Of a DNA stretch of 64,000 nt, positions 3,297 to 18,974 are shown in pieces. Where the stretch lies: contig NZ_JAQKGU010000001.1 in assembly GCF_028532725.1 (NCBI RefSeq), positions 434,001-498,000 on the forward strand, written 5' to 3'. Numbering within the stretch: position 1 is the stretch's first letter; every line of letters begins with the position of its first letter. The notes beneath the pieces are model-generated. The model did not search any database. It saw nothing but the letters and a program-made list of their open reading frames with translations, and was not told the DNA's origin. The position numbers and the translations under genes were made by a program. This DNA comes from Desulfovibrio sp. Fe33. GTDB lineage: Bacteria; Desulfobacterota; Desulfovibrionia; Desulfovibrionales; Desulfovibrionaceae.

Positions 3297-5213
3297 ATGG
3301 ACCGGTCAGGCGCGATAGATACTTTACTACAGGAAGAACGGGTTTTTCGTCCGCTTCCGCAATTGGTCATTGAGGCCAACGTCAATCCCCAGGAACTGGA
3401 AGGGGCGCGCAGGTTCGCGGCCGCCGATCCCGCCGGATATTGGGAGGAGGCCGCCGACGAGCTGGATTGGTTCAAGAAGTGGGATCAGGTCCTGGACGAC
3501 AAGGACGCGCCTTTCTACCGCTGGTTTCCCGGCGCGCGCTGCAACATCGTCTACAATGCCCTCGACCGCCACATCGAGACCGCCAACAAGAACAAGCTCG
3601 CCCTCATCTGGGAAGGGGAGCCGGGCGATCAGCGCAAGTACACCTATTTCGAGCTGTACCGCGAGGTCAACCGCTTCGCCAACGCCCTGCGTTCCCTCGG
3701 CATACGCAAGGGCGACCGCGTGGTCATCTACATGCCGCCGCTGCCTGAGACGGTCATCGCCATGCTCGCCTCCGCCAAGATCGGGGCGGTTCATTCCGTG
3801 GTCTTCGCCGGGTTCTCGGCCAAGGCGCTCCGCAAGCGCATCAACGACGCCCAGGCCAAGCTGGTCATCACCTCCGACGGGTTCTACCGCAACGGGCGGA
3901 TAATCAGCCTCAAGGATACTGCCGACGAGGCCCTGGTCGGGGCGTGCGCCGATTGCGTTGAGGCCATGGTCGTGGTCCGGCGGTGCAACCTGAGCGTGGA
4001 CATGGTCGACGGCCGCGACTTCCAGTACGAGGACCTGGTCCGCCAGGAGCGCAACGAGGCTCCCACCGAGGTCATGGACGCCGACGACCCGCTCTTCCTG
4101 CTCTACACCTCCGGGACCACCGGCACGCCCAAGGGCGTGATTCACTCCCACGGCGGTTATATGGTCGGCGTCCACCGGACCCTGACCACGGTTTTCGACA
4201 TCAAGCCCACGGACATCTTCTGGTGCACCGCCGATCCGGGCTGGATCACGGGTCACTCGGCGGGCATTTACGGTCCGCTCATGGCCGGGACCACCTCGGT
4301 CATGTACGAGGGGCATCCCAACTATCCCCAGGCCGACCGCCTATGGTCCGTGGTGGCCAAGTACGGGGTGACCATTTTCTATACCGCCCCGACCATGATC
4401 CGGATGCTCATGCGTTTCGGCGCCCAGTATCCCAAGCAGCACGACCTTTCCAGCCTGCGCCTGCTCGGCACCGTGGGCGAATCCATTTCGCCCGAAGCGT
4501 GGATATGGCTCTACAAGAACGTGGGCCGGTCTGAATGCCCGGTGCTCGACACCTGGTGGCAGACCGAGACCGGCATGTTCATGATCTCGCCCATGCCCAT
4601 CTCGGTGCTCAAGCCCGGTTCCGTGACCAAGGCCCTGCCCGGGGTTGAGGTGGACGTGGTGGACCGGGACGGCAATCCCGTGCCGCCGGGGAAGGGCGGG
4701 CTGCTCGTCGTCACCGCGCCCTGGCCGTCCATGATGACCGGCATGTGGAACGACGACGACCGTTATAAGGAATATTGGTCGCGAATCCCCGGCATGTACT
4801 ACGCGGGCGACGTGGCCCGCCGCGACGAGGACGGCTACCTCTGGATACAGGGGAGGGCCGACGACGTCATAAATATCGCCGGACACCGCATCGGCTCGGC
4901 CGAACTGGAGGCCGCCTTCGGCGTGCATCCGGCCGTTTCCGAATGCGCCGTCATCGGCGTTCCCGATCAGATCAAGGGCGAGGCCGCCAAGGCGTTCGTC
5001 ATGCTCAACGAGGGGTTCGCCCCCGGCGACGATCTCATCAAGGATCTCAAAAAGACCATTCGCAACGAGCTGGGCCCGGTGGCCGTCATCAAGTCCGTCG
5101 AGTTTCGCGACAAGCTGCCCAAGACGCGCTCCGGCAAGCTCATGCGCCGCGTGCTCAAGGCCGAGGAATCCGGCTTCGAGATCGGCGACCTGACCGGGCT
5201 CGACGAGGACTGA
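3297..5213 (+). CDS. acs: Acetyl-CoA synthetase (AMP-forming), copy 1
   Basis: Activates acetate to acetyl-CoA through acetyl-AMP in the cytoplasm. The adenylate-forming signatures are all present: [35 protein letters not shown], and the catalytic Lys in [11 protein letters not shown] near the C-terminus. The frame is open from a TTG at 3225 and an ATG at 3243. I chose 3297 because AGGAGG precedes it, and because the paralogue at 38453 aligns from this point ([11 protein letters not shown] with [11 protein letters not shown]). That gives 638 residues, normal for the family. It appears to be a single-gene unit. The second acs in the window suggests roles in different conditions or for different short acids (acetate versus propionate). 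Confidence 0.93.
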
Positions 5214-6436: not shown

Positions 6437-6556
6437 GGAATCGCAGGCTGGTATTGAATGAAGGTTATAATGTCCAAGAATTTTAGCAGGCCATAAGGTC
6501 TGCAAGAGTGTGAAAACCGTTTGCCTGACGTGCAACAAGTCAACGTTGGAGGGAGT

Positions 6557-6877
6557 ATGAAAAGCAAGCTCGTCCTGGCCGTGGCGACGGCCCTGATTAC
6601 CGTATTCGCCGTTTCCATGGCCTTTGCAATGGGCGAAGGCAACGCCCGCAAGGGAAAGTTCCTGTACCGGAAGAACTGTCGTTCCTGTCACGGCTCGACC
6701 GCCAGCGACATCAGCCCGGCGGACAAGACCCAGGCCGAATGGAAGGCCCTGTTCTCCGATACGGGCAAGATCAAGTGCAGCCCCGAGTGGACCGTCAACG
6801 AGAGCGACCTGAACGACATCTTCACCTACCTGCATGACTACGCCAAGGACTCCCCGTCCCCGGCCAAGTGCAGCTAA
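6557..6877 (+). CDS. Small periplasmic monohaem cytochrome c
   Basis: A 106-residue precursor with a Sec signal peptide (cleavage near AFA-MG, about residue 24). Haem attaches at Cys41-Arg-Ser-Cys44-His45. No Met follows the haem motif in the mature protein, so the usual His/Met ligation is unlikely; His93 or Cys74/Cys105 are the candidates. It is the first gene of the sulfur operon, 127 nt before the molybdoenzyme subunit, so it probably exchanges electrons with that complex in the periplasm. Start chosen at 6557, where GGAGGGAGT precedes the ATG and the signal peptide begins directly; the in-frame ATG at 6521 adds a non-signal stretch. Confidence 0.88.
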   Translation: MKSKLVLAVATALITVFAVSMAFAMGEGNARKGKFLYRKNCRSCHGSTASDISPADKTQAEWKALFSDTGKIKCSPEWTVNESDLNDIFTYLHDYAKDSPSPAKCS

Positions 6878-7003
6878 CGCAGAGCGGCAAGGGCCGCGCC
6901 CGGAGTTCCCGGCGCGGCCCTACACAACCGTCTTTCTTCCGCCCCGCTTCCAGGCTTGCGCGGAATCCTGTCCGACAGCAGAGCGGACGTTTGGAGGTAC
7001 TCA

Positions 7004-9199
7004 GTGACCAATGCAAAGCAGACGATGTCCCGTCGCGATTTCTTCCGGGCCTCCGGCCTGGTGGCGGCAGGGGCTGTGGGCGGCCCGGCACTGCTCGGCG
7101 GCCTGAAAAAGGCCCGTGCGGCATCGCCGGCCAAGCCCGCCTGGGATTCCAGGTTTTCGGTTTGCGACATATGCTTCAACAAGTGCGGCCTCATTGCCCG
7201 CGTTGAAGACGGGGTGGTCAGGAAACTCGACCCCAATCCCAAATTTCTCAAATCCAGAGGTATGCTCTGTGCGCGCGGCAACGCGGGCATAGCCCAGGTC
7301 TACGACCCGGACCGCCTCAAGCATCCCCTGCTCAGGAAGGGCGCGCGCGGTGAAGGCAAGTGGCAGCGCATCCCTTGGGACGAGGCTTTGGACATGGCCG
7401 CGCAGAAGATGGCCGAGGTCCGCGAAAAGTACACCTCTTGCGGACATCTGTTCACGGCCGGGACCGACCTGCACACGCAGTTCGTGGGCCGGTTCGCCGA
7501 GGTGTACGGCTCGTTCAACGTGACCTCGCACGAGTCCCTGTGCCTGGTCTCTGGCAGCCGCGCGTTCCTCGACACCTTCGGCGAGGTCCCCTTCGCCGAC
7601 GTGCTCAATTCCAAGTATGTAATGATGGTCGGGGCCAACCGCTTCGAGGCGCTTGTCACTCCGGACTCCATCGACCTGATGACCGCCATCCGCGAGAACG
7701 GCTGCAAGCTGGTCACGCTCGACCCGCGCTACACCAAGACCGCGGCCCTGTCCCACGAGTGGTATCCGGTCAGGCCCGGCACGGACATGGCCTTCATGCT
7801 CGCCCTTGCCCACGTCATCATCAACGAGAATCTTTACGACGCGCAGTGGGTGGCGGAGAAGACCTTCGGCATCGAGCAGCTCACGGCTCACGTGCAGCCG
7901 TACACCCCCGGCTTCGCCGCCGAGCAGTGCGGCATCCCGGCCGAGGACATCACCCGCATGGCCCGCGAGCTGGCCGCGGCCGCTCCGGCCTCCATGGTCT
8001 ATCCCGGCCGCCGCACCTCGGATTACGAGGACTCCACCCAGATCCGCCGCAGTTTCGCCATCGTCAACGGCCTGCTCGGCAACTGGGACAAGCCCGGCGG
8101 GCTTCTGGCCGCGCGCCAGGTGGGACTGAAGGGCGTGCCCTATGACGCCCCGTGGTACGACGAGAACATGGAGGACCGCATCGACGCGGGCAAGGTGCCC
8201 ATGATGTTCGAGCACGAAGGTTCCTTCCTCGTCACTCGCGATTCGATCCTGGCCGACGATCCGTATCCGATTCGGGGCTGGTTCGTTTACAAGACCAACC
8301 CCATGGGCACGGCTCCCAACCGCAAGAAGACCATCGAGATGATGAACAAGATGGACTTCATCACCGTGGTGGACATAGCCATGTCCGACACGGCCTGGAT
8401 GGCCGACCTGGTCCTGCCTTCCCAGTCCTATCTGGAGCGCACGGACCCGTGTTCCGGCCTTCAGGGTTCCGTGGCCTGCGCCTGCGTGGTCAAGCGCGAC
8501 CCGGTCATCGAACCGCTGTACGAGTCCCGGCCCCTGTTCGACATCATGAAGGGCATCGCCAACCGCCTGGACCTGGGCGAGTTCTTCGACTTCACCATCG
8601 AGGAATACCGCGAGATGCAGACCCGCGACATCCCCGAGGCGTTGAAGGTCATGGACCGCGACGGCGTGTACTACAATCCGTCCAAGGTCTACGGCATCTA
8701 CGACGGGCGCATTTACAAGACGCTGTCCAAGAAGGTCGAACTGTACAACCAGCGTTACGAGCAGATGGGACTCGACCCGCTGCCCAACTACACGCCTCCG
8801 TCGGGGCCGCCCAAGAACCAGTTCCGCATGGTCATCGGCCGCAACGCCATGATTACCCAGACCTCGACGGCCAACAACGCGCTCCTGCATGAGTTCGTGC
8901 CCGGCAACACCCTCTGGCTCAACACCGAATCCGCGGCGAATCTGGGCATCGCGGACGGCGATCTCGTCGAAGTGACGAGCCCGGTGGGCAGGCAGGAGCT
9001 CAAGGCCGAGGTAACGGACAAGATTCGTCCCGACACCGTGTACATGCTCTCCGGCTACAACACCCTGTCCACCATGCAGAGCCTTTCCCACGGCAACGGC
9101 GCATCCATCAACGAGCTGCTGGACGACGATTACGACGCCATCACCGGCAACGCGTCCATGCACACCACGTTTGTCACCGTAACAAGGAAGGTGGCGTAA
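7004..9199 (+). CDS. Molybdopterin oxidoreductase catalytic subunit (thiosulfate/polysulfide reductase PhsA/PsrA-like)
   Basis: A 731-residue Mo-bisPGD enzyme of the DMSO-reductase superfamily, exported folded by Tat (SRRDFFRAS, residues 9-17). The [4Fe-4S] ligands are Cys54, Cys57, Cys61 and Cys89. The likely Mo ligand is Cys180 in SHESLCLVSG, as in thiosulfate, polysulfide and related reductases. The C-terminal region (about 620-731) is the molydopterin dinucleotide-binding domain. GTG at 7004 is the start, with GGAGGT five bases upstream. The next gene begins at its stop codon. Neighbouring FeS and cytochrome b subunits, rhodaneses and a TorD-like chaperone point to a sulfur-compound substrate. 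Thiosulfate, polysulfide and tetrathionate cannot be separated by eye, nor can the direction of catalysis. Confidence 0.88.
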   Translation: MTNAKQTMSRRDFFRASGLVAAGAVGGPALLGGLKKARAASPAKPAWDSRFSVCDICFNKCGLIARVEDGVVRKLDPNPKFLKSRGMLCARGNAGIAQVYDPDRLKHPLLRKGARGEGKWQRIPWDEALDMAAQKMAEVREKYTSCGHLFTAGTDLHTQFVGRFAEVYGSFNVTSHESLCLVSGSRAFLDTFGEVPFADVLNSKYVMMVGANRFEALVTPDSIDLMTAIRENGCKLVTLDPRYTKTAALSHEWYPVRPGTDMAFMLALAHVIINENLYDAQWVAEKTFGIEQLTAHVQPYTPGFAAEQCGIPAEDITRMARELAAAAPASMVYPGRRTSDYEDSTQIRRSFAIVNGLLGNWDKPGGLLAARQVGLKGVPYDAPWYDENMEDRIDAGKVPMMFEHEGSFLVTRDSILADDPYPIRGWFVYKTNPMGTAPNRKKTIEMMNKMDFITVVDIAMSDTAWMADLVLPSQSYLERTDPCSGLQGSVACACVVKRDPVIEPLYESRPLFDIMKGIANRLDLGEFFDFTIEEYREMQTRDIPEALKVMDRDGVYYNPSKVYGIYDGRIYKTLSKKVELYNQRYEQMGLDPLPNYTPPSGPPKNQFRMVIGRNAMITQTSTANNALLHEFVPGNTLWLNTESAANLGIADGDLVEVTSPVGRQELKAEVTDKIRPDTVYMLSGYNTLSTMQSLSHGNGASINELLDDDYDAITGNASMHTTFVTVTRKVA

Positions 9200-9939
9200 T
9201 GGCACAGCAATTCGCCATGGTCATAGATTCGGCCAAGTGCATCGACTGCAAGGGATGCGTGGCCGCCTGCAAGGTCGCCAACGCCGTGCCCGAGGGCCAG
9301 TTCCGCAACTGGATCAAGCCCGCCGATGCGCCGGTCCGCCCCGGGCCGTCGAACGGCAAGGCAAAGTTCCAGCCCGGCGCGTGTATGCACTGCGAGAACC
9401 CCACCTGCGTGGCCGCCTGTCCCACGGGCGCGACATACAGGGACGCGGAAACCGGCATCGTCGTCATTGACGAGTCCCTGTGCATCGGCTGCGGCAACTG
9501 CATTCCGGCCTGTCCCTACGACGCCCGGTTCCGCAACGCTGTCACCCGCAAGGCGGACAAGTGCAACTATTGTCCCGAGCGGCGCGCCGCCGGGCTGCCT
9601 CCCGCGTGCGTGGACACCTGCCCGACCAAGGCGCGGGTGTTCGGCGATATCAATGATCCGCAGAGCGCGGCGGGCATCCTGTTCAGCAAGAACAAGGACC
9701 GGCTGGCCCGCGTCGCGGCCAAGACCGACACCAAGCCCAACATGTATTACATCGGCGATCCCGGACCGGGCGCATGGGGCCGCGAGGCCGTTGTGCCCGC
9801 CTCCATGGTGGCCATGAAAGAGTCGGCCCCGTTCATCAAGGGCATCGTGGCCCTTTCCGGCCTCGGCGTCCTGGCCATGCTCGGCCGTCAGCTCTTTGTT
9901 GGTTCCGGTTCCGATCACAAGGAGGACACCGATGCCTGA
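9199..9939 (+). CDS. Four-cluster [4Fe-4S] electron-transfer subunit (PhsB/PsrB-like)
   Basis: A 246-residue protein with four cysteine-rich cluster motifs: CIDCKGCVAAC near the start, CMHCENPTCVAAC, CIGCGNCIPAC, and CNYC..ACVDTC. This is the arrangement of the beta subunits of DmsB/PhsB/PsrB complexes. It relays electrons between the catalytic subunit and the membrane cytochrome b. A hydrophobic helix near residues 212-232 (FIKGIVALSGLGVLAMLG) could anchor it in the membrane, a feature of some formate-dehydrogenase-type beta subunits. Its ATG shares one base with the stop of the upstream gene, so the two are translationally coupled. No Tat motif is present, so it probably travels with the catalytic subunit. 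Confidence 0.92.
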   Translation: MAQQFAMVIDSAKCIDCKGCVAACKVANAVPEGQFRNWIKPADAPVRPGPSNGKAKFQPGACMHCENPTCVAACPTGATYRDAETGIVVIDESLCIGCGNCIPACPYDARFRNAVTRKADKCNYCPERRAAGLPPACVDTCPTKARVFGDINDPQSAAGILFSKNKDRLARVAAKTDTKPNMYYIGDPGPGAWGREAVVPASMVAMKESAPFIKGIVALSGLGVLAMLGRQLFVGSGSDHKEDTDA

Positions 9940-10663
9940 TAAGACGTACAAGCGGCACGACCGCTCCGATATCTTCATCCACTGGTTCAATGCGGCCTGC
10001 TGGCTGCTGCTCCTGCTCACCGGAGTGGGGCTCATCCAGAATCCGGCCATCGATCCCTTCGGGTCCGGCTATCCCGCCTGGCTGCGGTCCGTGGTGGGCG
10101 GCGGGGCCAACCTGTTGGCCCTTCACGAGGGCATCGGGCTCGTCTGGGTCGCGGGCTTCGTTCTCTACCTGCTCATCAACTTCCGGGGAGCGAAGTTCTT
10201 CCTGGCCGAGGTCTTCGCGGTCAGTCCGGCCCGCGACATGGCCTGGATGTTCAAGAAGATGATTCTCATGACCCTGGGGCCAAAGGCGTTGAAGATGGTC
10301 GGCGCGGACCCCGATCTGCCGGACCAGGGGTACTACAACATGGGCCAGAAGGCCTTTGCCCAGGCGTCCGTGGTGGGCGGCGTGGTCATCGCCGCGACCG
10401 GGATCGTCATGTACCTGTCCGACCGTACCTTCGGGGCCGAGTCCACGGGCATGATCGGCTGGGCCGTGACCCTGCATTTCATCGCGGTGGGGCTGGTCTT
10501 CGCCGGATTGCTGGTTCACATCTACATGGCCGCGATCTCGCCCGACGAGCGGCCTGGGTTCAAGTCCATGTTCACCGGCGTGGTCCCCGGCGACTATGCC
10601 AAGCATCACCACCGGCTGTGGTGGGAAAAGGTCAGGACCGAGTCCGGGAAGGGCTCGGAGTAA
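9932..10663 (+). CDS. Membrane cytochrome b subunit (PhsC/formate dehydrogenase gamma-like)
   Basis: A 243-residue integral membrane protein with four predicted helices. Candidate haem-ligating His residues are in FIHWFN, ALHEGIG, LHFIAVG and LVHIYMAA, the spacing seen in di-haem b subunits of formate dehydrogenase and Salmonella PhsC. It links the quinone pool to the FeS subunit. ATG 9932 lies just after AAGGAGG and overlaps the end of the FeS gene by eight bases. Together with the two upstream genes it forms a complete three-subunit, membrane-bound oxidoreductase. Confidence 0.9.
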   Translation: MPDKTYKRHDRSDIFIHWFNAACWLLLLLTGVGLIQNPAIDPFGSGYPAWLRSVVGGGANLLALHEGIGLVWVAGFVLYLLINFRGAKFFLAEVFAVSPARDMAWMFKKMILMTLGPKALKMVGADPDLPDQGYYNMGQKAFAQASVVGGVVIAATGIVMYLSDRTFGAESTGMIGWAVTLHFIAVGLVFAGLLVHIYMAAISPDERPGFKSMFTGVVPGDYAKHHHRLWWEKVRTESGKGSE

Positions 10664-10733
10664 CGGAATAGAGGGCCCGCCCGGGTCATGGGCGGGAAGG
10701 AAAATGAAGAATCCTTTAGGAAGGGAGTGTCTC

Positions 10734-11825
10734 ATGCACAGGAAATTGATTGCAGCCGCCGTCCTGCTGGCGTTCGTCGCAGTGGCCGCCGCCATGCCCG
10801 CCATGGCTCAGGAAAAGGCCAAGTTCAAGGAATTCCACTCCATAGTGGATTACAAGTTCGTGGCCGAGTACGCCAAAATGCCCCAGCCCAAGGGGGTCAT
10901 GATCGTCGATTCCAGGCCGTACAAGCCCAAGTACATCGAGGGGTACATCCCCACGGCCGTGTCCATCCCGACGAGCCAGTTCGAAAAGATGACCGACAAG
11001 CTGCCCGAGGACAAGAGCACGCTCCTGATCTTCTATTGCGGCGGCTTCGACTGCCCGTTGTCCCATAAGTCCGCGTTTGCGGCGGAGGCCATGGGCTACA
11101 CCAACGTCAAGGTTTACGCTGCCGGCTTCCCGGACTGGAAGAAGCGCGCGCCGTACTATTCCATCGGTATCGAGGACCTCAGCGCCCGCATCAGCGAGGG
11201 CGGCAACTACATGCTCGTGGACTCCCGGCCCCACAACAAGTTCCTGGAGGGCGCCATCCCGTCCGCCGTCGGCATCTCCGACAGGGATTTCGCGGCCAAG
11301 CGCGGCCTGCTGCCCACGGACAAGGAAAACACCACGCTGATTTACTACTGCGGCGGCTACGCCTGCGCCCTGTCCCACAAGTCCGCCGTCAAGGCGCGCT
11401 ACCTGGGCTACAAGAACGTGATCGTGGCCGAAGCAGGCTACCCCGGCTGGAAGGAGCTCTATGGCGGCTCTGCTACCGCCGTCGTGGCGGGCGAGGCCGA
11501 GGGCGCCGTGGACGCCGAGTGGTTCCTCAAGACTCTCAAGGAGAATCCCGAGGCCATTCTGCTCATCGACGTGCGCGACCCCGAGGAATACGCCGCCGGT
11601 CATTTCCCGTCCGCCATCAACATGCCGGTGGACATGGTCGAGAAGAAGGCCATGGAGATTCCCACCGACAAGCCCATCGTCTTCTCCTGCGCCACCGGCG
11701 CTCGTGCGGGCGAGGCATTCTATCTGTTCAAGGACATCCGCCCCGACGTGGAGAAGGTCTTCTATCTTGAAGCCACCAACCAGTTCGGCGACGGCAACAC
11801 CTACGAGGTCCATCCCAACAAGTAG
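10734..11825 (+). CDS. Periplasmic triple-rhodanese sulfurtransferase
   Basis: A 363-residue precursor with a Sec signal peptide (cleavage near AMA-QE, residue 25) and three rhodanese modules. Module 1 (about 50-140) has the loop Cys102-GGFD-Cys107. Module 2 (155-245) has Cys206-GGYA-Cys211. Module 3 (265-350) has a simpler CATGARAG loop with Cys319. The CxxxxC loops of modules 1 and 2 are unusual and match the position of the UGA in the next gene. Rhodaneses carry persulfide sulfur on the active-site Cys, so this protein probably delivers sulfane sulfur to, or takes it from, the oxidoreductase in the periplasm. It lies 70 nt downstream of the cytochrome b gene, with GGAAGGGAG upstream of the ATG. 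Confidence 0.9.
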   Translation: MHRKLIAAAVLLAFVAVAAAMPAMAQEKAKFKEFHSIVDYKFVAEYAKMPQPKGVMIVDSRPYKPKYIEGYIPTAVSIPTSQFEKMTDKLPEDKSTLLIFYCGGFDCPLSHKSAFAAEAMGYTNVKVYAAGFPDWKKRAPYYSIGIEDLSARISEGGNYMLVDSRPHNKFLEGAIPSAVGISDRDFAAKRGLLPTDKENTTLIYYCGGYACALSHKSAVKARYLGYKNVIVAEAGYPGWKELYGGSATAVVAGEAEGAVDAEWFLKTLKENPEAILLIDVRDPEEYAAGHFPSAINMPVDMVEKKAMEIPTDKPIVFSCATGARAGEAFYLFKDIRPDVEKVFYLEATNQFGDGNTYEVHPNK

Positions 11826-11890
11826 GGGATGGGCCGCTGACGGCCGGGGGAATCCCCGGCACGCCTTAAACCGAAAGGCGGGGAGCGCAT

Positions 11891-12898
11891 ATGCACGGAA
11901 CAACGACCTGTTACGCATGGCTGCTCCTCGCCTTGTGCATTTCGGCCGCTACGCCCGCCCTGGCCGACGAAAACGAGGTCTGGTGGGCGTCGGCCGTGAC
12001 CGAAGCGGACCGGGACGGCTACACCCTCATCGACGACGACGGGCTCAGGAAGCTGGTCGACGCGGGCGGCGACATGGTGCTGCTCGACGCCAGGGCGGAC
12101 TACGAGTTCGAGGCCGGACACATCCCCGGCGCGGTAAACCTGGAATTCGACCTGGGCGACGATCTGGAGCTTTCCCCGGAGAAGCGGCAGGCCCTGACCG
12201 ACCTCATGGGGCCGGACAAGGACCGGATGCTGGTCGTCTACTGCCGGTCATTCAGGTGACTGCGCAGCTCCATTGCGGCGCGCTGGGCAGCGCGTCTCGG
12301 TTATTCCCGGACATACAGATATCCGGCTGGCTTTCACGGCTGGAGGGACAAACATCCCGACATGGTGGTGGGCAAGCCGGAACAGGTGCACGTCCTGGCC
12401 GTGGGCGAGGACTTTCCCACCTGCCGGGTGGCGGTGCTCAACGGCGACGAGGACCGGGAATACCTTGGCCTGCCCGAAGGGGCCAAGTTCCTGCAACTTT
12501 CGGAACTCAAGGCGAGCTTCGTCCTCATCCAGCTCTACAACACCATGTGCAACGACTGCGTGGCGGAAACCAAGATGCTGACGCGGTTCTTCAAGAGGGT
12601 GGAGGCGGACCCGGAGCTTGCCGGGCAGCTCAAGATCATCGGGCTCGGGGTCTACGACTCCAACCTGTCCGTGGTCCGGTTCCGGAGGCACTACGATGTG
12701 GCCTATCCCTTGTTTTCGGACAAGAGCGGGCAGATATTCGAGTGTCTGGGCCAGGCCGAGCTGCCGCTGGCCTATCTGGTCCGGTCCAGGGGCGACGGCA
12801 CCTGGCGCATCGAGTTGATAAAGCGGGGCTATTTCGAGCCGGACGAGCAGTTCATGGACGTGCTCCGCTCGGCAGTGAAGCGGCCGCCGAGAGATTAG
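11891..12898 (+). CDS. Probable selenoprotein: periplasmic rhodanese-thioredoxin fusion with in-frame UGA (Sec123)
   Basis: Read through the UGA at 12257-12259, the frame stays open from 11891 to 12898 and gives 335 residues. It has a Sec signal peptide (to about ADE, residue 26), a rhodanese domain (about 45-155) and a thioredoxin-like domain (about 165-325) with Cys220-Asn-Asp-Cys223. The rhodanese loop reads Cys118-RSFR-UGA-LRSS, then AARWAARLGY and the normal end AGFHGW. Domain sequence on both sides is intact and in frame. The UGA falls five residues after the catalytic Cys, exactly where both CxxxxC loops of the upstream rhodanese have their second Cys. A SECIS-like hairpin follows. I infer selenocysteine. 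The alternative is a nonsense mutation leaving a truncated rhodanese and a separate thioredoxin from ATG 12362. Confidence 0.8.
12272..12301 (+). promoter_or_regulatory. Candidate bacterial SECIS hairpin
   Basis: Starting 12 nt after the UGA, the RNA can form a stem with CGCGCU/AGCGCG (12279-12284 with 12289-12294) capped by a GGGC loop. It extends downward by G-U, G-C, one C/U mismatch, G-C, two U-G pairs and A-U. The apical loop begins 25 nt after the UGA and starts with G. Bacterial SECIS elements are known as hairpins just downstream of UGA with a G at the start of a small apical loop. The element is inside the coding region, as expected in bacteria. Confidence 0.65.
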
Positions 12899-13512
12899 GT
12901 CCGGGCCACGGCCTCAAGCAGGTCGACGACGATGTCGGCCGTGAAGCGGAAGACCGGATCGGGGTCGGCGTCGGCAAGGGTTTCGCGGAAGCGGCGCACC
13001 CACGGGAGCATGACTTCGGCGGCGAACCGGGCTCCCCGTCCCTCAGGTTCGGCCTCCCCGGACCATTCCCCGGCGCAGAGATGGAAGAGGTATTCCAGCT
13101 CCAGGGTGAGATGGTCGGGCGGCTCGTTGGATTCGAGGGAAATGACAAGACCGGCCTCGTCCAGGCGGGCGGCCATTTCCTGGGCGCTTTTGCCCATGGT
13201 GCGGGATTCGGTCTCCTGGTGGCAGGATTCATAAAGCGGGGCCGGAATGCCGCCCGGTCCGGCGATGAACAGGCGGACGTATTCCGTCTCAAGCGGTGAG
13301 AAGTCGTCGGCATGGGCGCGGGACGCCAGCGTATCGGCCAGTTCCCTGACCGGCTCGGCCGGGAAGGTGGAAATTTTCTGGACACGATCAAGGAGTTCGG
13401 GCAATGCATGGGTGGCCAGTTCGGCCCACACCCCTTCATCCGGTCCCCGAAACACGGTGACGCCAAGCTCCATCAGATTGAGCAGAAACAGCTTAGACAT
13501 GGAAAGACACAT
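12895..13512 (-). CDS. TorD/DmsD-family molybdoenzyme chaperone
   Basis: A 205-residue, all-helical cytoplasmic protein. The family signature is seen in LETEYVRLFI followed by GPGGIPAPLYESCH near the middle. TorD-like chaperones bind the Tat leader and apoprotein of a specific molybdoenzyme until cofactor is loaded. The obvious client is the Tat-dependent catalytic subunit at 7004. Start 13512 is set by GGAGG eight bases upstream on this strand; an in-frame ATG four codons later is possible. It converges on the selenoprotein gene with a 4 bp overlap of the stop regions, and diverges from the CstR-like regulator across a palindrome. Confidence 0.85.
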   Translation of the reverse strand: MCLSMSKLFLLNLMELGVTVFRGPDEGVWAELATHALPELLDRVQKISTFPAEPVRELADTLASRAHADDFSPLETEYVRLFIAGPGGIPAPLYESCHQETESRTMGKSAQEMAARLDEAGLVISLESNEPPDHLTLELEYLFHLCAGEWSGEAEPEGRGARFAAEVMLPWVRRFRETLADADPDPVFRFTADIVVDLLEAVART

Positions 13513-13563: not shown

Positions 13564-13612
13564 AGTTCGTGCCGGGGCAATGGGAACATGGGTTGAGAAA
13601 AAGGAGAAAATG

Positions 13613-13906
13613 ATGGGCGAACACATGTCGGCCGAAGAGTTGGCAATCAAGAAAAACGTGCTGTCGCGCATGAAGCGCATCGAAGGACAGGTGCGCGGCA
13701 TCCAGGGCATGATCGAGTCGGGCAAGGAATGCCAGGATATCCTGGTCCAGGTCCGCGCCGTGCGTTCCGCCCTGCAATCGGCCAACAAGCTGATCCTCAA
13801 GCGCTATCTGCTCAAGTGCTATGCCGAGTCCGTGGAGAGCGGCCAGGACGCCAAAGAGGCCCTGGACAAGTTCATCTCCGTGGTCACCGGCTTCATTGAA
13901 GGCTGA
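13613..13906 (+). CDS. CsoR/CstR-family (DUF156) repressor, CstR-like
   Basis: A 97-residue helical regulator with the family core RMKRIEGQVRGIQGMIE. The sensing residues are Cys40 (GKECQDIL) and Cys69 (LLKCYAES), 29 residues apart, the same spacing as the paired sensing Cys of CsoR and CstR. The His that ligates Cu(I) in CsoR, four residues before the second Cys, is Tyr65 here. That pattern fits the persulfide-sensing CstR subgroup better than a copper sensor. ATG 13613 is preferred over the adjacent 13610 because AAGGAG (13601-13606) is then six bases away. Genomic context with rhodaneses and a sulfur oxidoreductase supports sulfane-sulfur sensing. The EF-hand gene follows 26 nt later. Confidence 0.88.
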   Translation: MGEHMSAEELAIKKNVLSRMKRIEGQVRGIQGMIESGKECQDILVQVRAVRSALQSANKLILKRYLLKCYAESVESGQDAKEALDKFISVVTGFIEG

Positions 13907-17243: not shown

Positions 17244-18626
17244 CTACTCTCCGTGCAAAATCGACTTCCACCGCCTGGCGTCTTCCCAGTTGAAGCCGCC
17301 CGGCACGCAGGGCCAAATGGAGTTGTTCTGAAAGAGCGGTTCGTCGGCCAGCGGATACGGGCTGGCGGCGCAGGCCGCATCGAACATGGGCGACCCGGGG
17401 ATGGGCGTGTAGTGGGCCAGGTGCGGGCGGAACCCGAAGGAACGCACGTGGCGTACGGCCTGTTCCACATTGCCGAGATCCTGGCCGGGGAGGCCGAAGA
17501 GAATATACACCCCGATATCGTCGAGATCGAACCCCGCCTCCAGGAGATTCCGGGCTCCCGCTTCCCATTGCTCGCGCGTTAGTTTGACGTCGTGACGGTG
17601 GTCGAAGTCCGTGGTCTCCAACCCCAGCCGCACCGTGGTCAATCCGGCCGCCTTGAGCCGACCGCACACCTCGGGGGTGAGATGGCGCACATGCATGGCG
17701 TTGGGGGTGTGCAGCCTGATGTCCGGACCCGCCCCGGCGATTTCGTCGAGAACCGGCCAGAGCCAGCGCCCGGGATTGACGAGCAGCGCGTCGTCGTAAA
17801 AGGCGAAGTCGCGCACCCCCCGGGCGTGCTCGGAGCGCACGGTTTCCATGACCGCATCGGCAGTGCCCTGGCGGAAATGGGGATACAGGGCGCGGCTGGC
17901 GCAATATTCACAGGCAAAGGGACAGCCCCGCGAACCGAGAATGATCGAAAATGCCGGGTCTGAATAAAGGTCTAATGCTAATGAAAGACCTGAATTCTCA
18001 GTTGGTTGAGCTTGATTGAAATTAATCAGATCGCAGAAATTAGCCCAGTTCGCGGAGTTTTCCAGCGGGCCTTGCTGGAGGTGGGCGTCGGCGTGTTTGG
18101 CGGCATGTTCTCCGCACAAGGTGGCGTAAGTGCCGCCGAGGAAGCGGGGAGTGTCGGGCCACAGTTCGGCGCAGATGTCGAGGATGTCGAGCGCGCCGGG
18201 ATACCAATAGGTCATGATGGTCGTGACCATGACGGCGTCAGGGGCCGGATCAAGCGCGGCCAGCGCTTCGACGACCCGGTCGCGGGGGAGGCCGTAGCGG
18301 GAATAGCGGCGGTCCATGAAGGCCAGTGGCGCGGGCGGTTCGATTTCTTCCTTGTGGTAGTGGCCGGTGCCGTACTTGCCGGGTTTGGGCCATTTGAGGC
18401 CGAGCTCCGGGGCCGGGGCCCAGGTGGGATCGAGACAGTCGAGCAGGGCGACCGAGGCTCCGGCGTTGCGGAGCATGTCCAGGCAAGCGAGCAGACCGGC
18501 GGGACGCGACCAAACGTTGAAGGCGGCGAAGTCGGTTATCCACGGGTTGATGCCGAGGACGCGCGGGCCGTCGTCCCGGTCCGGAAGCGAGGACCAAGGA
18601 ATGTTGGGAAAAGTGGGGCGTGCCAT
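17244..18626 (-). CDS. B12-binding-domain radical SAM protein
   Basis: A 460-residue protein. The N-terminal part (about 1-200) has the layout of a cobalamin-binding domain (DAVMVTTIMTYWYPGALDIL, then FLGGTYATL). The radical SAM cluster motif Cys-x3-Cys-x2-Cys is in SRGCPFACEYCASRAL, followed by the TIM-barrel segments FAFYDDALL and VRLGLETTDF. Such enzymes methylate or rearrange unactivated carbons; the substrate is not evident. Start 18626 is chosen because the upstream extension is low-complexity and overlaps the next gene. An A/T-rich patch at about 17945-18055 encodes NSANWANFCDLINFNQ and looks unlike the rest of the gene. A small membrane-protein gene lies 5 nt upstream. Confidence 0.85.
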   Translation of the reverse strand: MARPTFPNIPWSSLPDRDDGPRVLGINPWITDFAAFNVWSRPAGLLACLDMLRNAGASVALLDCLDPTWAPAPELGLKWPKPGKYGTGHYHKEEIEPPAPLAFMDRRYSRYGLPRDRVVEALAALDPAPDAVMVTTIMTYWYPGALDILDICAELWPDTPRFLGGTYATLCGEHAAKHADAHLQQGPLENSANWANFCDLINFNQAQPTENSGLSLALDLYSDPAFSIILGSRGCPFACEYCASRALYPHFRQGTADAVMETVRSEHARGVRDFAFYDDALLVNPGRWLWPVLDEIAGAGPDIRLHTPNAMHVRHLTPEVCGRLKAAGLTTVRLGLETTDFDHRHDVKLTREQWEAGARNLLEAGFDLDDIGVYILFGLPGQDLGNVEQAVRHVRSFGFRPHLAHYTPIPGSPMFDAACAASPYPLADEPLFQNNSIWPCVPGGFNWEDARRWKSILHGE

Positions 18627-18631
18627 GGCGG

Positions 18632-18808
18632 CTAGCGGTTCATGAAGTTGGACAGGATGGACAGTCCGAGCATGACGATGACGATGATGAGCAGGATATT
18701 GGTCAGCCGGTCGCGCCGCGCCGCCCGTTGCTGCTTGGACCTGGTGAACTGGCTGAAGATCAGGAAGATCAGGCCGAGGATGATGATCAGTTTGACGAGC
18801 AGGCTCAT
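18632..18808 (-). CDS. Small membrane protein (58 residues)
   Basis: A short hydrophobic protein with two predicted membrane segments, LLVKLIIILGLIFLIFSQF near the start and ILLIIVIVMLGLSILSNFM at the end, separated by a very basic loop (TRSKQQRAARRDR). Its stop is 5 nt before the radical SAM start, which suggests co-transcription. The ribosome-binding site is weak, so the start is uncertain. I do not recognise a family. Confidence 0.6.
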   Translation of the reverse strand: MSLLVKLIIILGLIFLIFSQFTRSKQQRAARRDRLTNILLIIVIVMLGLSILSNFMNR

Positions 18809-18974
18809 GGGGAGGGTGTAGCGGATTTCCCGGAAAAAGTCTTGCCCGCATCGGGCCTGTGGAATCGTTGCCGGTTCGTCCGGCACGGCAGGGCTGCCCG
18901 GGGCGGTGAAACCGGGCAGGGGGCTTTCGCTTCTTCCCTGCGGGGAAGGATGTTGGAGGCCTGTCCTGCGGCGG

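Follow-up and report, generated by a model that had tools for sequence, protein, structure and literature searches.

The 64,000-nucleotide window analysed here, a stretch of the sulfate-reducing bacterium Desulfovibrio sp. Fe33 (contig NZ_JAQKGU010000001.1, positions 434,001–498,000 of the forward strand), contains a gene for a rhodanese–ResA-like fusion protein (11891–12898, forward strand, 335 codons) whose rhodanese active-site loop is closed by an in-frame UGA. We are nearly certain that this codon (12257–12259, codon 123) is, as predicted, decoded as selenocysteine (Sec) by the SelA/B/C/D machinery, and the role of a hairpin just 3′ of it in directing Sec insertion there is well supported. 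The overall explanation that we favour, in which the product is a selenoprotein partner of a PhsA-like molybdenum (Mo) reductase with the persulfide chemistry described below, appears highly probable. Published sources are cited by their PMC numbers.

The UGA is the only stop codon in the frame before the terminal TAG. It ends a six-residue loop, C118-RSFR-U123, which opens with the catalytic cysteine (Cys), Cys118. When the UGA is read as Cys, the Pfam Rhodanese profile (PF00581) matches residues 52–153 across the UGA site with an E-value of 1e-16 (61.6 bits; gathering cut-off 22.2), and an AhpC-TSA match follows at residues 201–289 (E 2.6e-6). The initial annotation, made from the sequence alone, had described a frame broken only by the UGA, with intact domain sequence beyond it, and this is what we find. 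It had also placed the UGA at Cys+5, the position occupied by a second Cys in the CGGFDC and CGGYAC loops of the triple rhodanese encoded next door; both loops indeed have Cys there. The N terminus of the fusion protein looks like a signal peptide on inspection, and the second domain carries a thioredoxin-like motif, C220-N-D-C223. A sequence-profile search matched ResA to the second half of the protein. An AlphaFold2 model of residues 27–335, based on an alignment of 27 sequences, reached a mean predicted local distance difference test (pLDDT) score of 89.8 and a predicted template modelling (pTM) score of 0.60; its best Foldseek match was the soluble domain of ResA (E 6.6e-10, target TM-score 0.83).

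The loop-end site was compared in 49 sequences, 20 from our genome set (the window's own included) and 29 from named records, all of which differ in the DNA around the site. Sequences from duplicate genomes (L068, L078, L081 and L088, duplicating L024, L025, L028 and L036, respectively) were dropped before counting, as was the distant rhodanese L089 (E 6e-5), which lacks the motif. The site encodes Sec (UGA) in 38 sequences and Cys in the other 11; no other residue occurs. Within the genus, the gene was found in 29 of 36 genomes, with UGA in 24 of the copies and Cys in five (these rows overlap the named ones, as the DNA of L057 sits inside L153). The restriction to Cys or UGA in all 49 and all 29 sequences supports the earlier proposal of a selenocysteine sulfurtransferase, and the recurrence of the same UGA in many separate assemblies answers the concern that resequencing might reveal a sense codon. 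The frame 3′ of the UGA is under purifying selection: the ratio of nonsynonymous to synonymous substitution rates (dN/dS) downstream of the codon was 0.05–0.26 in 11 ortholog pairs; a twelfth pair was saturated.

These data bear directly on the possibility that the UGA is a true stop, which would make the rhodanese a dead fragment and the thioredoxin-like part a separate open reading frame (ORF), or the whole a decaying gene. A standard-code ORF of 178 residues does start at ATG 12362. The UGA, however, falls well inside a conserved domain; 38 of the 49 sequences share it and the remaining 11 have Cys. Conservation also extends through the 34 codons that separate it from this ATG, and we give the possibility practically no credence. 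We reject a pseudogene, a sequencing error and a true stop, given that many genomes have this UGA, that Cys is the sole alternative seen and that the downstream frame is under selection. In a tree of 62 rhodanese domains (the 49 sequences, two further relatives and, for comparison, three TsoB-type and eight CGF-type domains discussed below), the Sec/Cys label requires at least eight changes, five of them forced by well-supported branches. Sec and Cys have therefore been exchanged repeatedly.

The genome of the window organism (3.46 Mb, 99.99% complete) possesses the machinery on which the selenoprotein proposal had been made to depend: selenocysteine tRNA (SelC, 79.6 bits), SelB (389), SelA (610) and SelD (333) all score above their cut-offs. 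Two FdhA genes and selD of the same genome contain one in-frame TGA each; the Sec system therefore has other expected clients. SelB also exceeded its cut-off in each of the 24 carrier genomes examined, of which 18 have Sec copies and six have Cys copies. Elsewhere in the window organism's genome, a third, partial match to formate dehydrogenase alpha (L050, C12:92313–93047) has one TGA and scores below the family cut-off.

The hairpin that follows the UGA (12272–12301, forward strand) resembles a bacterial selenocysteine insertion sequence (bSECIS). Its 7-base-pair (bp) upper stem (12278–12284 paired with 12289–12295) encloses a GGGC apical loop (12285–12288); the hairpin is placed 25 nucleotides (nt) after the UGA and has a folding energy of −15.2 kcal/mol. 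Each of these values falls within the published bSECIS rules, which specify a loop of 3–9 nt with G in its first two positions, a stem of 4–16 bp, a distance of 16–37 nt from the UGA and an energy of −7.5 kcal/mol or lower (PMC13188914, section 5); the GGGC-loop hairpin at bSECIS distance that had been pointed out in the initial annotation is thereby upheld. Among 33 mock sites (Cys codons of three neighbouring genes), two, both at one place, reached −7.5 kcal/mol and none reached −15.2. Under the bSECIS rules, −7.5 kcal/mol was reached by 30 of 38 Sec forms versus 4 of 11 Cys forms. The median fraction of synonymous shuffles equalling the native hairpin was 0.077 for Sec forms and 0.544 for Cys forms (Mann-Whitney p = 1.1e-4).

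Two overlapping registers of the hairpin were distinguished in the alignment, a register being called when at least six of its seven pairs were formed. Register A, to which the window hairpin belongs, pairs columns 22–28 with 33–39 and has loops such as GGGC, GGAU and AGUU; register B pairs columns 19–25 with 29–35 around a GGU or GUU loop. Register A was found in 19 and register B in 12 of the 38 Sec forms, and register B with its GGU/GUU loop in none of the 11 Cys forms. Every Sec copy of the genus (24 of 24) keeps a register, 21 of them A and three B (L019, L169 and L172). L018 and L019 have identical residues over the stem (AARWAARL), yet form registers A and B, respectively. The covariation score was matched by 3 of 500 shuffles for the register A rows and by 0 of 500 for the register B rows. 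The RNA signal and the protein sequence thus evolve under joint constraint: the hairpin changes register over an unaltered amino-acid sequence.

Several aspects of these data limit the weight of the hairpin. Taken alone, it is weak evidence: when the window gene is shuffled synonymously, 6% of the resulting sequences equal it. For known-type Sec genes of the same genome the fractions were 19% and 2.5% (FdhA) and 0.9% (SelD), and since the SECIS of an FdhA gene reaches 19%, the single-gene shuffle test has little power. The comparison of Sec with Cys forms, including its p value, ignores relatedness. The first version of that comparison, with a looser loop rule, gave medians of 0.13 for Sec and 0.36 for Cys forms (p = 0.045), and whole-region folding gave p = 0.44; narrowing the loop rule to the published G[G/U] pattern, with one mismatch allowed, meant analysing the same data a second time. 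By simple count, seven of the 38 Sec forms fit neither register, and register A persists in 4 of the 11 Cys forms. In the pair counts for register A, 95 of 500 shuffles equalled the native number of both-side changes and 95 that of further pair types, and for register B the figures were 429 and 266 of 500; two of the five measures per pair count did not stand out. The rows counted had moreover been chosen for forming the stem (19 of 21 for register A, 12 of 12 for register B), and in coding DNA the protein, too, influences such pair counts. The Rfam model SECIS_1 (RF00031) was uninformative, as it matched neither the window gene nor anything in 14 control genomes, and an Rfam scan of 11800–12700 returned chance-level matches only. 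As a separate observation, Pseudodesulfovibrio pelocollis (L024/L068) has a Cys form that retains a register A hairpin, which looks like a recent change from Sec to Cys.

The fusion gene is part of a conserved operon. In the window, the forward strand successively encodes a c-type cytochrome (Cytochrome_CBB3, 6521–6877, one CxxCH by inspection), the catalytic subunit of a molybdopterin oxidoreductase (6956–9199; best model PhsA, with a sub-threshold twin-arginine translocation signal match), a 4Fe-4S electron-transfer subunit similar to NrfC/TtrB (9199–9939), a membrane subunit similar to cytochrome b561 and formate dehydrogenase gamma (9896–10663), the triple rhodanese (10716–11825, the longest ORF beginning at 10596) and the fusion protein; a convergent gene on the reverse strand (12895–13497) encodes a TorD/DmsD-like chaperone. 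Across 33 named loci, the upstream genes include one for cytochrome b in 31, for the iron-sulfur protein in 30 and for the PhsA-like Mo subunit in 28; the TorD-like chaperone is present in 27, the triple rhodanese in 24 and cytochrome c in 23. Of the five loci without the Mo subunit, four are cut short by a contig end, and L060 has none within 7.9 kb upstream, a stretch that includes 200 unread bases. The PhsA assignment is weakened by the score of the catalytic subunit, 520.8 bits against the NF012032 cut-off of 694. The probable function of the operon is the reduction of sulfur compounds on the outer side of the cell membrane. The fusion protein is encoded within it, and we infer that it probably works with the reductase as a periplasmic partner handling sulfane sulfur.

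The chaperone gene is followed by a gene for a CsoR-family repressor (13580–13906, forward strand), and a CsoR-family match adjoins the operon in 12 of the 33 named loci. In an alignment with the solved CsoR structure 4m1p both Cys residues are kept, and tyrosine replaces the histidine of the RH..HC stretch. CsoR-type repressors with two Cys and no histidine at the metal site are known to sense persulfide. Such a neighbour, together with the thioredoxin-like/AhpC-TSA domain, would suit a selenoprotein that serves detoxification or redox repair (of excess polysulfide, selenite or tellurite, or peroxide) and not respiration. The linkage to a Mo reductase and cytochromes points, however, to a function in electron transport, and we regard a detoxifying role as improbable. 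Farther along the window, the reverse strand encodes a radical S-adenosylmethionine protein with a sub-threshold B12-binding match (17244–18851).

In the chemistry that we consider most likely, Cys118 would form a persulfide with sulfane sulfur supplied by polysulfide or by the adjoining triple rhodanese; Sec123 would then attack this persulfide, so that sulfide is released and a Cys–Sec bond is left, and the bond would be reduced by the CNDC motif of the fused ResA-like domain or, in forms without that motif, by a separate thioredoxin. Thioredoxins are known to reduce the persulfides of plant sulfurtransferases to H2S (PMC7995614). Rhodanese loops mostly end in arginine or threonine/serine, and this terminal residue helps to break thiosulfate (PMC8533005). 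In the fusion protein this place is taken by Sec123; with Sec or Cys in place of arginine or threonine, the protein is unlikely to act as a classical thiosulfate sulfurtransferase, and a persulfide or polysulfide is therefore the likelier substrate. That an exchange of Cys for Sec alters the chemistry of a persulfide relay, as suggested in the initial annotation, is plausible. The assignment of Sec123 as the resolving residue could, in our judgement, go either way.

Some observations qualify a scheme in which the two domains act together. The pTM score of 0.60 means that their mutual arrangement is left unfixed by the model. The thioredoxin CxxC is lost in L030, L031 and L081 (the last from the same genome as L028), with the Sec rhodanese kept, and the second domain is absent from other carriers, for example L032–L037 and L084. 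Because such carriers exist, the fused thioredoxin-like domain is not essential, which suggests a separate reductant in some species. They also fit a relay in which the sulfane sulfur of Cys118 moves to Sec123 of the same selenoprotein, forming a selenopersulfide, and from there to the Mo reductase in the manner of the sulfurtransferase Sud, the thioredoxin-like domain merely keeping the site reduced. Such a relay would be in keeping with the PhsA-like reductase of the operon and with a weak profile match (E 6.4e-4) to 1qxn, a 'sulfide dehydrogenase' that we take to be Sud. A Cys/Sec loop pair beside a CxxC domain fits reductive release at least equally well, however, and we consider the relay unlikely. 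A broader picture can also be drawn, which we hold tentatively and with slightly more doubt than conviction: Sec would have been recruited repeatedly to one rhodanese loop position of a sulfur-reducing electron-transport operon (that of the fusion protein in most species and, in a single genome, that of the triple rhodanese as well), the Cys/Sec rhodanese and the thioredoxin-like domain would form a self-contained persulfide reductase, and the SECIS would have moved between two overlapping registers by synonymous changes. The fusion protein exists naturally with Sec and with Cys within a single genus, in a conserved operon, and so offers a testable case for the use of selenium in place of sulfur; it may also help to explain what a widespread Mo reductase of sulfate reducers does.

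The initial annotation noted that rhodanese-type selenoproteins have been predicted elsewhere, and a 2026 review lists five rhodanese-like forms, including TsoB with a UxxxxU motif (PMC13188914). TsoB is a rhodanese/DsbD fusion-like selenoprotein (NF045694; Haft and Tolstoy 2025, cited in PMC13188914). This model is also the best NCBIfam match of the rhodanese part of the window protein (residues 11–155), which scores 100.6 bits against a whole-protein cut-off of 805 and has CxxxxU, not UxxxxU. The TsoB-type loops YUAGLTUVRS (L109, L118) and YUAGLAUVRS (L111), called as such from motif and length and not from model score, have Sec at the same loop end. TsoB has a further Sec, in place of the catalytic Cys that the window protein keeps (Cys118), as well as a DsbD-like part; the three TsoB-type domains form a clade separate from the window family in the tree. 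Since TsoB already has a loop-end Sec, and further rhodanese forms are listed, the window case is not a new kind of selenoprotein, and the initial description of it as looking new was too strong. Form 3 of the review (CxU; NF041203, rhodanese_LYCAU) gave 23.4 bits against a cut-off of 115. The ULRS of the window protein fits form 1, UxxS (WP_010941598.1; PMC13188914), and earlier surveys include a 'sulfurtransferase homologous to a rhodanese-like protein' (PMC2398784, PMC5029168); compared by motif or description only, these entries may share the loop position or even include the window family. Further rhodanese-type selenoproteins appear in older surveys (PMC1088965, PMC2398784, PMC5029168, PMC9312934), and a marine deltaproteobacterial genome reportedly encodes a selenoprotein that contains a rhodanese-like domain (PMC8318568). 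The selenoprotein lists of Desulfovibrio vulgaris and D. desulfuricans name no rhodanese type in the available portion of their source (PMC1794560). The CGF..C-type Cys rhodaneses of Desulfobacterota (L038–L047, L097–L101, L106, L116) have CxxxxC, with Cys, in those read, at the place of the window's Sec; the eight included in the tree also form a separate clade.

With respect to the operon, the periplasmic Sud of Wolinella succinogenes carries a polysulfide chain (PMC3397948). Sud, which acts with polysulfide reductase (Psr), is like the window protein a rhodanese-type sulfurtransferase, and its role is in polysulfide respiration. It is not known to have a loop-end Sec or a thioredoxin-like domain, and the Psr anchor is NrfD-like. 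The membrane subunit of the window operon, unlike that of Psr, is cytochrome b-like. The MOLY cluster (MolyA, MolyB, MolyC/TorD), proposed to function in sulfur disproportionation (PMC12998232), shares with the window operon a PhsA-related Mo enzyme, a second subunit, a TorD chaperone and its occurrence in Desulfobacterota. Family members that have transmembrane anchors are, however, treated as distinct from MOLY, and no rhodanese gene is named in the available text of that source (PMC12998232). Among the matches listed in searches of the open-licence literature and in the papers cited here, no description of a Sec rhodanese inside a Mo-reductase operon was found.

The triple rhodanese may itself contain Sec in one relative. 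In a Pseudodesulfovibrio genome (L057, positions 4384–4386; the same DNA as L153), its first loop reads CGGFT-UGA, and a hairpin with a GGA loop on a 6-bp stem lies 22 nt past the UGA (shuffle fraction 0.034); it is possibly a second Sec protein of the same operon. With the UGA at the loop position that it has in the fusion gene, this case lends independent support to the Sec reading there. Against this, the hairpin, at −7.1 kcal/mol, just misses the −7.5 rule, and the UGA occurs in 1 of 29 genus copies, in a draft assembly that is 87% complete. A TGA near the triple rhodanese of G550 was considered as a Sec site and rejected, the stop preceding the ATG of that gene. Among other stretches from the phylum, L120 and L121 gave no clear CxxxxU reading. 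Further CxxxxU rhodaneses were seen, with the loops CNGFKU (L125, L126), CRGYSU (L123), CRGYGU (L124), CRGGGU (L122) and CEGFRU (L127); some of L122–L127 have tandem rhodanese domains, and L127 has a CxxCH upstream.
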